NCBI RefSeq assembly: GCF_001483965.1
Contig: NZ_CP010796.1
Location: 558,001-622,000, forward strand
Source of the DNA: Carnobacterium sp. CP1
GTDB taxonomy: Bacteria > Bacillota > Bacilli > Lactobacillales > Carnobacteriaceae
Direction of reading: 5' to 3'
DNA: 64,000 bases
Shown here: piece by piece, positions 7,139 to 30,167 of the stretch
How positions within the stretch are numbered: the first letter of the stretch is position 1
How the letters are laid out: each line of letters begins with the position of its first letter
The notes under the pieces: model-generated
Databases searched by the model: none
What the model was told of the DNA's origin: nothing
The model's input: the letters and a program-made list of their open reading frames with translations, nothing else
Translations under genes and position numbers: made by a program

Positions 7139-7164
7139 CTTTGGAGATAGAAAAACAAGTAATC

Positions 7165-7286
7165 CTTTAATCCTAGTCCTGTGAGACTAAGAAGGAGCAG
7201 ACACGTATGAGCGAAGACTAGCTAGTTTTTAAAACAGTCAACCTCAGAATGCCCTCTTACTCAATAGGTAAGAGGGCATTTTTTAT
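7165..7286 (+). promoter_or_regulatory. PyrR-dependent attenuator 1, upstream of pyrR
   Basis: The leader holds a PyrR-binding-loop-like segment (AGTCCTGTGAGACT, 7175-7188, followed by AAGAAGGAGCAG), a middle region able to pair alternatively, and a terminator at 7249-7285 (ATGCCCTCTTAC, loop, complement, T-run). In this family UMP-bound PyrR stabilises the anti-antiterminator and so allows termination. Confidence 0.8.
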
Positions 7287-21955: not shown

Positions 21956-21989
21956 AATCAGTCCCTTTTAAAGAAAATAACGATTTGGC

Positions 21990-22018
21990 TTGACACTTAT
22001 GAAAGCAACTAGTAAGAT
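21990..22018 (+). promoter_or_regulatory. promoter of the trpXYZ-type operon
   Basis: Consensus TTGACA (21990-21995) and TAAGAT (22013-22018) with 17 bases between. It starts a leader of about 415 nt. Confidence 0.75.
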
Positions 22019-22059
22019 AAATCTAATAAGTTTTTAATCAACCAATAGGAGTGTTTGCC

Positions 22060-22122
22060 ATGAATCCATTTTTACCTATCGCTATGAACTTAAATAATCG
22101 TTGGCAAAGCCAAGATAGATAG
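22060..22122 (+). CDS. leader peptide 1, 20 codons with one Trp codon
   Basis: A short ORF starting eight nt after AGGAG (22047-22051). The C-terminal part reads NLNNRWQSQDR, with Trp at codon 15. The Trp codon lies in a tight hairpin TTGGC-AAA-GCCAA (22101-22113). The next gene encodes a TrpX-type binding protein. The position, right after a promoter and before an attenuator, is that of a regulatory leader peptide. That it senses tryptophan is inferred. Confidence 0.7.
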   Translation: MNPFLPIAMNLNNRWQSQDR

Positions 22123-22147
22123 GTTGATTTATGAAGCTTCTTCATAG

Positions 22148-22300
22148 GTACAACCTTCAGGAAAGTTCTGAACTTGTATCTATGTTGGTTTATTTGAACA
22201 CACGTGAAAACGACCCACATAGAGTAAGACGTTTATTCTATGTGGAGTTGTTTAATATAAACAGCTACCACAAGTACTTTTGTGTAGCTGTTTATTTTTT
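22148..22300 (+). promoter_or_regulatory. transcription attenuator with competing hairpins upstream of trpX
   Basis: Four pairings are mutually exclusive in part. A: 22179-22189 with 22213-22223. B: 22215-22227 with 22233-22245. C (antiterminator): 22242-22254 with 22258-22271, 13 pairs, one bulge, loop ATA. T (terminator): 22257-22273 with 22280-22295, then seven T. A excludes B, B shares GTGG with C, and C shares its 3' arm with T. No T-box motif is present. Confidence 0.75.
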
Positions 22301-22344
22301 TACCATCATTATTTAAAATAATAGAGATAAAGGAGCAAAATAAG

Positions 22345-22398
22345 ATGTCTTTTCTTTTTATGAAACGATGGCAGTACTTGGAGAAAACAATTCAATAG
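22345..22398 (+). CDS. leader peptide 2, 17 codons, also with Arg-Trp-Gln
   Basis: A short ORF lying between the terminator and trpX, nine nt after AAAGGAG. It reads MSFLFMKRWQYLEKTIQ. Its RWQ triplet repeats that of leader peptide 1. It ends 41 nt before the trpX start, so it could control trpX translation or reinitiation. Function is inferred from position and the shared motif. Confidence 0.55.
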   Translation: MSFLFMKRWQYLEKTIQ

Positions 22399-22439
22399 GA
22401 ACGAAAGATTCTTTAACTACTTACTTTGGAGGAAAAAAT

Positions 22440-23426
22440 ATGAAAAAAATGATTGGGTTTATCAGTGTGTTAGCACTAATTTTAACGTTTGCATTTTTTA
22501 CGAACCAAACTAAAACAAACACAGCAACAAAAAAAGATTTGCCTATAGTAGGCGTCTTACAACTAACCAGCCATCCTGCGCTAGATTTGATTTATGAAGG
22601 TATTATCGATGCTCTAAACGAAGAAGGATTCATCGACGGAGAAACCATGACATTGGACTTTCAAAACGCTCAAGGCGACCAAAGCAATTTAAATTCTATG
22701 AGCGCTCGTTTCGTGAGTCGGAATACGGCAGTTATGGTGGGCATCGCCACCCCAGCTGCTCAAGCGCTAGCTAATAGTTCTCAAGAGATTCCAATTATTT
22801 TAGGAGCTGTCAGCAATCCTGAAGAAGCTGGGTTGGTTGCCAACAATGAAAAACCTGGTGGAAATATTACGGGTGTTAGTGATTTAACTCCAATTAAAGA
22901 ACAGTTTGAATTGATCAAGGAACTTTTGCCAGAAGCAAAAAAGATTGGCATTCTTTATTCATCCAGTGAAGACAATTCTATCGTTCAAGCTAAACAAGCT
23001 GCTGAAATTGCTACCGCTATGGGGTATGAAACAACTACTTTAACCGTTTCATCAACGAATGATGTGTCACAAGTTAGTTCTTCATTGGCCAGCCAAGTAG
23101 ATGCTATTTGGGTTCCAACAGATAATACTGTAGCCAGTGCTATGAATACCTTGATTGCAGCAACTGATGCTAACCACATACCGGTATTTCCAGCCGTAGA
23201 TACAATGGTAGAAGAAGGTGGACTAGCAACGATCGGTTTAAACCAATACGAATTAGGAAAATTAACGGGTCAAATGACAGCAGCTGTTCTTAAAGGCGAA
23301 AGCGATCCGGCAACAACGCCTGTGCAATACCTTGAGCAAGGAGAAATTATACTCAATGAAGAAAAAGCAAAGGAATTAGGGATTTCTATCCCGCAAACCT
23401 TGTTAGACCAAATGGCAAATCAATAA
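22440..23426 (+). CDS. trpX: TrpX-type ABC transporter substrate-binding protein
   Basis: Binds the ligand outside the membrane and delivers it to the permease. The ATG at 22440 is chosen because TTTGGAGG lies 7 nt upstream; a frame extension to 22368 has no ribosome site. The 328 residues begin with a signal sequence (KKMIGFISVLALILTFAFF) without a clear lipobox Cys, followed by PIVGVLQLTSHPALDLIYEG and GNITGVSDLTP, typical of the COG2984 family. Family members are predicted to carry tryptophan or tyrosine in Firmicutes. Followed by permease and ATPase genes. Confidence 0.85.
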   Translation: MKKMIGFISVLALILTFAFFTNQTKTNTATKKDLPIVGVLQLTSHPALDLIYEGIIDALNEEGFIDGETMTLDFQNAQGDQSNLNSMSARFVSRNTAVMVGIATPAAQALANSSQEIPIILGAVSNPEEAGLVANNEKPGGNITGVSDLTPIKEQFELIKELLPEAKKIGILYSSSEDNSIVQAKQAAEIATAMGYETTTLTVSSTNDVSQVSSSLASQVDAIWVPTDNTVASAMNTLIAATDANHIPVFPAVDTMVEEGGLATIGLNQYELGKLTGQMTAAVLKGESDPATTPVQYLEQGEIILNEEKAKELGISIPQTLLDQMANQ

Positions 23427-23458: not shown

Positions 23459-24349
23459 ATGGATTTAATTGTAACAGCAACAGCACAAGGTTTGTTATGG
23501 GGAATAATGGCTTTAGGCATTTTTATCACTTATCGGATTCTAGATTTACCGGATATGACAGCAGAAGGGTCTTTTCCTTTAGGAGCTGCTGTTTGTGCCC
23601 GATTGATCCTTTCAGGCGTTCATCCGCTGCTAGCAGCACTAGCAGCTTTTATTATTGGAGCTCTCGCGGGGTTCATTACTGGTTTTTTGATCACTAAAGC
23701 CAACATGCCAGGTCTATTAGCCGGTATTCTGACTATGACAGGACTTTATTCCATTAATTTACGCATAATGAACCGGGCGAATTTAAGCTTATTAGGCAAA
23801 CAAAAAATAACGGACTTATTAAGTCGATACAACTTGCCGCCTCAGTTTGATACAATCTTTATGGGCATCCTTCTAACGGTCTTGATTATCACTGCACTAG
23901 TCCTTTTCTTTAAAACCGAACTAGGCCAAGCGGTGATTGCTACTGGAGATAACGAAAAAATGGCACGTTCATTAGGAATATCGACTAACCGTACAAAAAT
24001 ATTGGGTTTAATGTTGTCAAACGGAATCGTTGCTGCAGCAGGAGCTTTGATTGCACAAGACAATGGTTATGCAGATATTAGTATGGGGATTGGTACCATT
24101 GTTATCGGATTGGCTTCCGTTATCATTGGAGAGGTCATCTTCGGGAACTTATCTTTTGCCAATCGTTTGATTTGTGTGATTTTAGGCGCTATTATTTATC
24201 GCTTCATCATTATGTTTGTCTTGCTAGTAGGTCTACAACCAAACGATTTAAAACTGATTTCCGCCATTATTTTAGCTTTCTGTTTAGCTTTACCAAGTTT
24301 AAGAAACAAACTGAATTTAAACTTTTTCAATAAAAAGGAGGTTCTTTAA
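23459..24349 (+). CDS. trpY: ABC transporter permease, TrpY type
   Basis: A 296-residue membrane protein with about eight to nine hydrophobic segments, in the branched-chain-type permease group (COG4120). It has TYRILDLPDMTAEGSFPLGAA near the N-terminus and GDNEKMARSLGI in the cytoplasmic coupling loop. It lies 32 nt after the binding protein and is directly joined to the ATPase gene. Substrate follows from the family (aromatic amino acid) and is not proven here. Confidence 0.85.
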   Translation: MDLIVTATAQGLLWGIMALGIFITYRILDLPDMTAEGSFPLGAAVCARLILSGVHPLLAALAAFIIGALAGFITGFLITKANMPGLLAGILTMTGLYSINLRIMNRANLSLLGKQKITDLLSRYNLPPQFDTIFMGILLTVLIITALVLFFKTELGQAVIATGDNEKMARSLGISTNRTKILGLMLSNGIVAAAGALIAQDNGYADISMGIGTIVIGLASVIIGEVIFGNLSFANRLICVILGAIIYRFIIMFVLLVGLQPNDLKLISAIILAFCLALPSLRNKLNLNFFNKKEVL

Positions 24350-25159
24350 ATGACAACGCCCGCAGTCTTATCGCTTCAAAATATCACTAAAACATTTTAT
24401 CCTGGAACAGCTAACCAAAACCAAGTTTTAAAAGGGCTAAATCTAGAAGTCCAACAAGGCGATTTTATAACGATCATTGGTGGAAACGGTGCTGGGAAAT
24501 CAACTATGTTGAATAGTATTTCAGGAAACTTTTTAATTGATCAAGGTTCCATTAAAATCGAAGGCAAAGAGATCACTAAATTAAAAGAAGAACAACGCGC
24601 AGGAATGATCGGGCGGGTATTTCAAGATCCCTTGATGGGGACTGCGCCGCGTATGACGGTTAGCGAAAATTTGTCCATCGCTTATCGGCGCGGAAAGAGA
24701 AGAACGCTACGAAAAGGCAGCTCTCTAAAAGAAAGAGAGTTCTTCAAAGAAATTCTATCTAAATTGGGATTGGGTTTGGAAAATCGTTTGGACAGTGAAA
24801 TGGGATTATTATCTGGTGGACAGCGTCAGGCTATAGCATTACTAATGGCTACTATGAAAAAACCAGAGTTGTTGTTATTGGACGAACATACTGCAGCGCT
24901 CGATCCTAAAACAGCAAAAATTGTTTTAGATTTGACAAATAAGCGGATTTCCGAAGAGCATCTAACGGCATTGATGATCACCCACAATATGCAAGATGCT
25001 TTAAATTATGGCAATCGTTTAATTATGTTGGATCAAGGAAAAGTAGTCGTGGATGTCAAAGGTGAAGAAAAAAACAATTTAACTGTCGCTACAGTTTTAA
25101 ATTTATTCCAAGTTTCAACAGAAGAAAGTGCTCTTTCAGATGAAATGATACTGGGGTAA
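24350..25159 (+). CDS. trpZ: ABC transporter ATP-binding protein, TrpZ type
   Basis: A 269-residue ATPase with Walker A GGNGAGKST (about 45-53), signature LLSGGQRQA (about 157), Walker B LLLLDEHTAAL and the switch His in MITHN. The DEHTAALD form is characteristic of COG1101. AAAAGGAGG precedes the ATG, which follows the permease stop without a gap. Completes the trpXYZ-type importer; a terminator follows at 25229-25280. Confidence 0.88.
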   Translation: MTTPAVLSLQNITKTFYPGTANQNQVLKGLNLEVQQGDFITIIGGNGAGKSTMLNSISGNFLIDQGSIKIEGKEITKLKEEQRAGMIGRVFQDPLMGTAPRMTVSENLSIAYRRGKRRTLRKGSSLKEREFFKEILSKLGLGLENRLDSEMGLLSGGQRQAIALLMATMKKPELLLLDEHTAALDPKTAKIVLDLTNKRISEEHLTALMITHNMQDALNYGNRLIMLDQGKVVVDVKGEEKNNLTVATVLNLFQVSTEESALSDEMILG

Positions 25160-29537: not shown

Positions 29538-29790
29538 TTTACCACTCCATTCACATATCTTAAGCTAGTTGTTAATCTTCTAGCTCGTTCATTATAACGG
29601 ATAAAATAAAAAAAAGAAAATCCCATTTGTTTCTACCAACAAAAAGAACTAATGTTCAGTATTAGTTTCAAAAAAAGATCAGCTATGGTATTATTGAAAA
29701 TGTAGAAAAGTTTAAGACGGTGGCTATCTCTTATTAAAATGGGGTGATGCCGATGTTTTTGTTTCGGGCTTTCCCCAGAAAGGAAAACCC

Positions 29791-29874
29791 ATGAGTATCT
29801 TCGAAGCCTTGATGTTTGCACTAGCTTTTGCAACATTGGTTTTAAAAATCTCATCTAATGACAAAAAAAAGTAA
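29791..29874 (+). CDS. holin-like type I toxin peptide
   Basis: A 27-residue hydrophobic peptide starting MSIFEALMFALAFATLVLK and ending in Lys-Lys-Lys. This matches the Hol-Tox/TxpA-like group of small membrane toxins (typical opening M..FEALMLM..FG). AGGAAA precedes the ATG. Upstream lies GGGGTGATGCCGATG, a leader pattern I associate with these loci. A promoter-like TGGTATTAT lies at 29685-29693. An antisense promoter on the other strand and a shared bidirectional terminator complete the locus. Confidence 0.75.
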   Translation: MSIFEALMFALAFATLVLKISSNDKKK

Positions 29875-29910
29875 CCGTCTAAACTTTAGCGAGTAGGACG
29901 ATTACTTTTT
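29862..29910. terminator. bidirectional terminator shared by toxin mRNA and antisense RNA
   Basis: AGTAACCGTC (29870-29879) pairs with GACGATTACT (29896-29905) with one mismatch. It has A8 on its left and T5 on its right, so it works in both directions. Confidence 0.75.
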
Positions 29911-29982
29911 GTTTCTTCTATTTGGCTACCGTCTTTAACGGTTCTGCAAAAGAGGGGAATGTTGACGCATTTCTCTCTTTTC
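29863..29982 (-). ncRNA. predicted antisense antitoxin RNA of the holin-like toxin
   Basis: On the minus strand TTGAAA (30011-30016) and TATAAT (29989-29994) with a 16-base spacer predict a start near 29982. The RNA would run towards the toxin gene and end at the shared terminator, about 120 nt. It carries a TTAAAGACGGTAGCC segment resembling TTTAAGACGGTGGCT in the toxin 5' leader. The ends are estimates. Confidence 0.6.
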
Positions 29983-30167
29983 TCTTGTATTATAACATGT
30001 TTCTATTTTTTTTCAAATACATTCTCTTTTTAGCCGTTACAATAAAACAACGGCACTTAAATATGTCTGTAATACTTGAGGTATGAAATTGTAATAAACT
30101 GCTAATATCAATACAAATAAGATATATGCTATTATGAGAGAGTCAAATAGAAAGGGAAGAGACTATT

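Follow-up and report, generated by a model that had tools for sequence, protein, structure and literature searches.

The leader of about 275 nt that lies between a carbonic anhydrase gene and trpXYZ in the window (the whole stretch of 64,000 nucleotides from Carnobacterium sp. CP1 that was analysed) is, judged in silico, very probably a ribosome-mediated transcription attenuator that acts on trpXYZ and reads the supply of Trp-tRNA through a codon of a short leader ORF. Comparison of sequences shows that this ORF and the pairing strands behind it exist and are conserved, that the strands covary and that the leader codon class tracks the downstream gene. Moreover, it is likely that the Lactobacillales have one inherited attenuator chassis that was repeatedly re-coded and whose specificity is set only by exchangeable leader codons (Trp, Phe/Tyr, Ile or mixed Tyr-Trp-Phe). 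With up to several copies per genome this would be an aromatic and branched-chain regulon that replaces T-boxes, and the Rfam families RF04312 and RF02863 would be pieces of it.

The leader ORF, MNPFLPIAMNLNNRWQSQDR, has 20 codons (22060-22122, on the + strand as are all leader features and genes given below) and is preceded by a Shine-Dalgarno sequence, AGGAG (22047-22051), that is aligned in relatives; a Trp leader is found there at the same place. A short ORF with a ribosome binding site and a codon for the amino acid of the regulated genes is thus present. The Trp codon is codon 15 (22102-22104) and lies within a hairpin of its own, UUGGC-AAA-GCCAA (22101-22113), just as the first-pass annotation had read it from the sequence. 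The same annotation had placed a consensus promoter upstream, which holds in part: a promoter-like TTGACA-17-TAAGAT (21990-22018) scores 10/12 in a scan, and TTGAC and a -10-like element are aligned in relatives, but the scan of the window found 2 promoters where 2.5 were expected, which is not above chance. The promoter call therefore rests on the alignment with relatives. The first gene downstream, trpX (22440-23426; PF04392), encodes the substrate-binding protein of a tryptophan ABC transporter and is a member of the NCBIfam equivalog TrpX (NF041285, 457.2 bits, cut-off 390). It is followed by the permease gene trpY (23459-24349; PF02653) and the ATPase gene trpZ (24350-25159; PF00005).

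A second short ORF with a Shine-Dalgarno sequence, MSFLFMKRWQYLEKTIQ, is found just 5' of trpX (22345-22398). The residues (K/R)RW and the bases ACGATGGC at this ORF are common to many Carnobacteriaceae and absent in L003-L005 and L025; it could be a second Trp sensor. Elsewhere in the window, Rfam rli28 (110.9 bits, + strand) adjoins a RatA antitoxin RNA (63.8 bits, - strand) at 29679-29992, and a PyrR binding site is seen at 7160-7286 (56.6 bits).

The 274-nt leader folds at -88.6 as compared to -52.3 (sd 4.1) for shuffles, a z score of -8.85. Its strands are 1 (22121-22136), 2 (22143-22156), 3 (22174-22190), 4 (22213-22227), 5 (22233-22254), 6 (22257-22271) and 7 (22279-22295). Strands 1 and 2 form hairpin P (22121-22156, -15.7 kcal/mol), in which AGGUUG and the bases after it, starting inside the leader stop codon, pair with a stretch that ends in CAACCU. 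Strands 2 and 3 form H3 (22143-22184, -17.4 kcal/mol), which pairs CAUAGGUACAA with UUGUAUCUAUG and excludes P as well as the next hairpin, A (strands 3:4, 22179-22224, -12.6 kcal/mol). A in turn excludes B (strands 4:5, 22215-22245, -17.1 kcal/mol), B excludes C (strands 5:6, 22242-22271, -12.9 kcal/mol), and C is the antiterminator of terminator T with its U tract (strands 6:7, 22257-22301, -18.6 kcal/mol). From these successive exclusions it follows that seven strands, each of which can pair with either neighbour, form a chain headed by the ORF. A, B, C and T had been proposed before, and folding reproduced all four at those places; the cascade is real, and with P and H3, which had been missed, it is two steps longer than thought. 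Hairpin B is the terminator in most relatives, and in RF04312 it carries the U tract itself; in the window, where its U tract is poor, the clear terminator is T. A further hairpin, H1 (22074-22124, -12.4 kcal/mol), pairs ACCUAUC (22074-22080) with GAUAGGU (22118-22124); it is weakly conserved by eye and might cover strand 1 in the absence of a ribosome.

Both exclusive states covary, which answers the check that the first-pass annotation had called for. In alignment A1 (77 of 111 sequences, those with more than 90% identity removed), the state with P (helices 1 and 2) and A (helix 3) has 89.0% paired cells, and 15 of its 23 pairs are changed on both sides; the doubly changed cells number 116, as against 46.2 after shuffling and at most 45 when the pairing is slid. 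The same 77 sequences give 86.3% paired cells for the state with H3 (helix 1) and B (helix 2, with 96.3% of cells paired); here 23 of 28 pairs are changed on both sides, with 169 doubly changed cells as compared to 65.8 shuffled and at most 104 when slid. The second stage was followed in 17 relatives that have it; alignment A3 was made without L002, which was mis-anchored and is near-identical to L001. Terminator T has 89.3% paired cells and 6 of 11 pairs doubly changed, whereas the covariation of C is the weakest (77.5% paired cells, 5 of 12 pairs doubly changed). Mutually exclusive antiterminator and terminator structures are both conserved, the second stage (C/T) less so.

Translation of the leader, stalling, termination and the response to amino acids would be connected as follows. 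At low Trp-tRNA the ribosome would wait at UGG (22102) and strand 1 would stay free; 1:2, 3:4 and 5:6 could then form, neither terminator would, and trpXYZ would be transcribed. With ample Trp-tRNA the ribosome would reach the stop codon (22120) and cover strand 1, upon which 2:3, 4:5 (B) and 6:7 (T) would form and transcription would end. Folding of window prefixes is in line with this, bearing in mind that these are equilibrium folds and not kinetics. With the Trp codon in the A site (RNA free from 22116) the probabilities were 0.94 for P, 0.00 for H3 and 0.99 for A; with the stop codon in the A site (RNA free from 22134) they were 0.00, 0.83 and 0.23. When P and A were enforced, B had 0.00 and C 1.00 at 22272, and when H3 was enforced, B had 1.00 and C 0.17. 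In the full-length RNA, however, T wins with P and A enforced (0.93) as well as with H3 enforced (0.94): P, A and T together have -55.7 as against -52.7 for P, A and C, and C beats T only while T is incomplete. Hence, C must act before T is complete and the last step must be kinetic. Apart from this late step, a ribosome at the codon favours the antiterminator and one at the stop codon the terminator in silico. The mean probability of A in 111 leaders is 0.87 when the ribosome sits at the first sensor codon and 0.47 when it sits at the stop codon; A drops by more than 0.3 in 67 of these leaders and rises in 4. A fall from codon to stop was likewise seen in 38 of 62 Phe/Tyr leaders and in 13 of 15 Ile/Leu leaders, with no rise in any. 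With the ribosome at the stop codon A remains above 0.5 in 53 of the 111 leaders, and without a ribosome it averages 0.59, so that a leader that is not being translated would not clearly be off.

Matches to the TrpX protein occur in all 5 genomes of the genus and all 18 of the family, and 80 trpX loci were kept from the scan of the collection. Nearly all trpX loci of Lactobacillales have a short ORF with a Trp codon upstream that is led by a Shine-Dalgarno sequence. Before the stop codon these leaders end in LNSSWQSQDR, NFFDWQSHVE, INRWQFQH, LNGWWRR and others. The usual form is LNxxWQ(N/S)WRR with two Trp codons; the window has, with WQSQDR, a one-Trp form, and a single Trp codon senses more weakly than the two that are usual. 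The first-pass annotation had made its reading depend on a peptide that is conserved in relatives, and the leader is indeed kept across the Lactobacillales. Of the 81 two-Trp leaders, 68 encode Q by CAA; for the L that precedes N, the codons TTG, TTA, CTG and CTA are all in use. On the basis of this codon bias, selection of the conserved WQS purely at the peptide level was dropped as an explanation; since Q is mostly CAA while the L codons vary, both RNA and peptide levels may act.

The downstream half of the window leader corresponds to the Rfam trpB motif, RF04312, in which H3 and B are the two hairpins. Its model gives the window 43.9 bits where the cut-off is 59; relatives (L025, L027, L072 and L076) pass. 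At E <= 0.001 the motif matches in 160 of 295 genomes of the order, 52 of them over the cut-off, but across the phylum there are only 5 matches in 398 genomes, two of which (L138 and L139) are false by eye; the motif is therefore rare outside the order in this set. We fetched 114 matches, the order being represented by 30 returned loci and 80 further listed matches picked by hand. An automatic rule found a Trp ORF with a Shine-Dalgarno sequence ending at most 35 nt from the motif in 106 of the 114, of which 105 start with ATG. Applied with ATG to controls, the same rule accepted 16 of 2280 sequences with shuffled dinucleotides, a single one of the 114 reverse strands and, at shifted places, 7 of 342. 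Of those that the rule missed, two have a Trp ORF by eye, L209 with a weak Shine-Dalgarno and L193 with an ATT start, and L136, L211 and L219 have an ORF with Phe/Tyr codons at the same place; L138, L139 and L205 were dropped as unrelated hairpins. Taking the rule and inspection by eye together, a leader ORF is at the 5' side of RF04312 in 111 of 111 credible copies. In the Alkalibacterium loci L072 and L076 the ORF starts beyond 500 nt, outside the first leader scan, and that of L072 was read by eye. In one genome (G073) the best RF04312 match (L106) is followed by a reverse-transcriptase-like ORF, recognised by eye, instead of trpX, as would result from the insertion of an element.

The distance from the sensor codon to the switch is nearly constant, unlike that from the stop codon. 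With distances taken to the start of the best duplex, to a precision of about 2 nt, 78 of the 81 leaders that have at least two Trp codons have the last one 9-12 nt upstream of the P arm, and 85 of 107 leaders have the first Trp codon 18-21 nt upstream of it. The stop codon may lie as much as 8 nt upstream of that arm or up to 15 nt within it (-8 to +15).

Inspection of the window genome revealed three further copies of the chassis besides the trpX leader. Two precede TrpX paralogs of 46 and 43% identity, and their leaders, translated by eye, end in QLNNYFFSYFIDCL and QLNNYYFSYLRCCL before the stop codon. The fourth copy in the genome, found with the covariance model at C1:507440 (L383, E 0.06), has a leader ending in NNSQYWFSYFRESL with Tyr, Trp and Phe codons; it stands before the gene of a pyridoxal-phosphate aminotransferase that would act on aromatic amino acids. 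A 21-base chassis pattern has further copies in 123 of 290 genomes. Among the 40 pattern loci fetched were 34 Phe/Tyr leaders (type NNYYFSYFR), one Ile leader (TIISIIR) and one locus in which no leader was called (L271); four matches with neither leader nor chassis (L256, L261, L264 and L265) were judged to be chance. Alignment A2 was composed of every second sequence of A1, less L190, L106 and L121, plus 29 of the 40 pattern loci and L228. The covariance model of the chassis matches in 60 of the 76 genomes of one family, with up to 7 matches per genome, though some of these are one site matched again on its reverse strand; of these matches, 60 listed ones were picked by hand and fetched, and every one carries a leader. 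In one genome (G243) Trp, Phe/Tyr and Ile leaders are found side by side. At about base 250, L339 has a Leu/Ile leader, ESLLSLSILR, before a LivJ-like gene, and L334 a Val/Ile leader, VVIINRIYIR, before an OppA-like gene; it is possible that these are further specificities.

The codon class of the leader agrees with the downstream gene in 204 of 210 called leaders, gene families being assigned via representatives and seven paralog loci (L006-L012) being labelled Phe/Tyr by hand. Trp leaders (122) precede TrpX-like genes in 115 cases and trpB in 5; 2 are without assignment (L106 and L368). The 73 Phe/Tyr leaders stand before TrpX-like paralogs (54), aroE (11), DAHP synthase (3), an SNF-family transporter (1) and a permease (1), and 3 have no assignment, whereas the 15 Ile or Ile/Leu leaders precede LivJ-like genes (7), ilvE (4), ilvA (2), ilvB (1) and an OppA-like gene (1). 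Since genes of the TrpX-like kind are found behind Trp as well as Phe/Tyr leaders, the agreement rests there on the protein tree. A tree of 120 of the 169 TrpX-like proteins has a single branch, with a support of 100, between the 79 that have Trp leaders and the 41 that have Phe/Tyr leaders, and the class changes once as compared to 34.3 times after shuffling; as a caveat, the split of the transporters into Trp and Phe/Tyr is a single event on this tree. In accordance, three proteins behind Phe/Tyr leaders reach 286-339 bits with the NCBIfam TrpX model (cut-off 390) and two behind Trp leaders 457 and 478. Because this RNA, when it carries Phe/Tyr or Ile codons, precedes genes for those amino acids, the sensor should be the codon and, hence, the supply of aminoacyl-tRNA.

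These codon exchanges also bear on the other ways in which such a leader could work. A single Trp codon in the window leader, a peptide conserved around it (LN..WQ.W.R) and the off state that results in the fold simulation from a ribosome held at the stop codon would all suit a TnaC-like arrest, which the first-pass annotation had offered as well and in which free tryptophan halts the ribosome at the leader end so that strand 1 stays masked. We consider this very unlikely. The stop codon varies widely in position relative to the Trp codon and to P, leaving no fixed distance from sensor to stop, while the distance from the Trp codon to the switch hardly varies; the C-termini differ (WQSH, WWRR, WQSRHSGL), the codons in common mostly agree in their nucleotides too, so that constraints on the RNA may explain them, and a chassis with F/Y or I codons would require new ligand sites. 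A metabolite-binding riboswitch in the downstream half, with an aptamer that binds the amino acid and favours the terminator, has the conserved hairpins and an anti-terminator in the right shoulder of P1 on its side, and the motif was classed a strong candidate by Narunsky et al. 2024 (PMC11109978). Against it, an ORF with the cognate codon is at the 5' side of all 111 credible copies; most of the conserved letters belong to the pairing segments, paralogs of other specificity keep these letters and differ in the codons of the ORF, and an attenuator is left possible by the authors themselves in the passages on the motif (PMC11109978). The riboswitch is accordingly given very little probability indeed.

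A protein, be it an anti-terminator or another RNA-binding factor, that reads the hairpins next to an incidental ORF would be compatible with the folding and is among the options considered by Narunsky et al. (PMC11109978), but the presence of the ORF, the position of its codon and the identity of that codon all track the downstream gene, which makes such a reader extremely unlikely. A T-box that directly reads uncharged tRNA-Trp is reported to control trpX in Streptococcus suis and precedes trpX in 3 of 20 loci tested, all three in clostridial or Firmicutes MAGs. For the window leader it is hardly conceivable: no T-box (RF00230) was found in the window at the gathering score, nor over 21960-22460 at E up to 1, and the earlier remark that an attenuator stands here instead of a T-box was correct. 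Altogether, the data support codon-reading, ribosome-mediated attenuation over riboswitch, T-box or TnaC-like arrest. The trp-type leader-peptide attenuator proposed at the outset is borne out by the conservation of the leader, the covariation of both states, the fold simulation and the codon-exchanged paralogs before matching genes.

The his attenuator of E. coli and Salmonella has six strands (A-F), the trp attenuator four. Like these enterobacterial systems, the leader described here has a peptide with cognate codons, a chain of mutually exclusive strands and a terminator at the end. Unlike in these, strand 1 is at or after the stop codon, so that a ribosome at the stop masks it, there are seven strands with two terminator-like hairpins in the window, and the sequence of the chassis is common to different amino acid classes. 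Leader-peptide attenuators are already known for his genes of Firmicutes (PMC2965389, PMC9413887), and uORFC-13-1 at aroF of Acholeplasma is, like these, a regular leader peptide outside the Proteobacteria, among Gram-positive bacteria and their kin (PMC8632094); as far as these sources describe them, they have His or Phe codons in separate RNAs, and a shared, re-coded chassis is not reported. In the open-licence literature of PubMed Central no account of this attenuator class with a re-codable chassis was found.

Parts of this class have been seen before. Narunsky et al. 2024 (PMC11109978) described the trpB motif as an orphan and a strong candidate for a riboswitch; its copies, over 900 in number, were from Firmicutes and Fusobacteria and lay upstream of trpB or of genes for amino-acid ABC transporters. 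In the passages on the motif it appears without leader ORF and without P, and an attenuator is mentioned as no more than an option; our analysis adds the ORF and P and extends the class to other amino acids. As judged from covariance model scores, the Phe/Tyr form is also in Rfam, as RF02863 (Enterococcus sRNA 2410): 5 of 20 Phe/Tyr, Ile or Trp loci are over the cut-off of 61, the best with 166.9 bits. In Enterococcus faecium this RNA is 195 nt long, and Northern blots confirmed it and showed two transcripts (PMC5593968); the account of it there is that of a small RNA, not of a terminated leader. The two transcripts could reflect two terminators. A search of the open-licence literature in PubMed Central found no link of the trpB motif to a leader peptide, to RF02863 or to codon-exchanged copies.

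The attenuator thus offers a mechanism for an orphan riboswitch candidate with more than 900 reported copies and for an orphan family of enterococcal sRNAs. The codon exchanges found in nature serve as an existing test for the part of an attenuator that determines its specificity, and they point to a modular sensor whose input should change when a few codons are replaced. For the lactic acid bacteria, amino-acid control is predicted for many transporters and biosynthetic genes, and the TrpX-like paralogs are likely to have substrates of the Phe/Tyr class.
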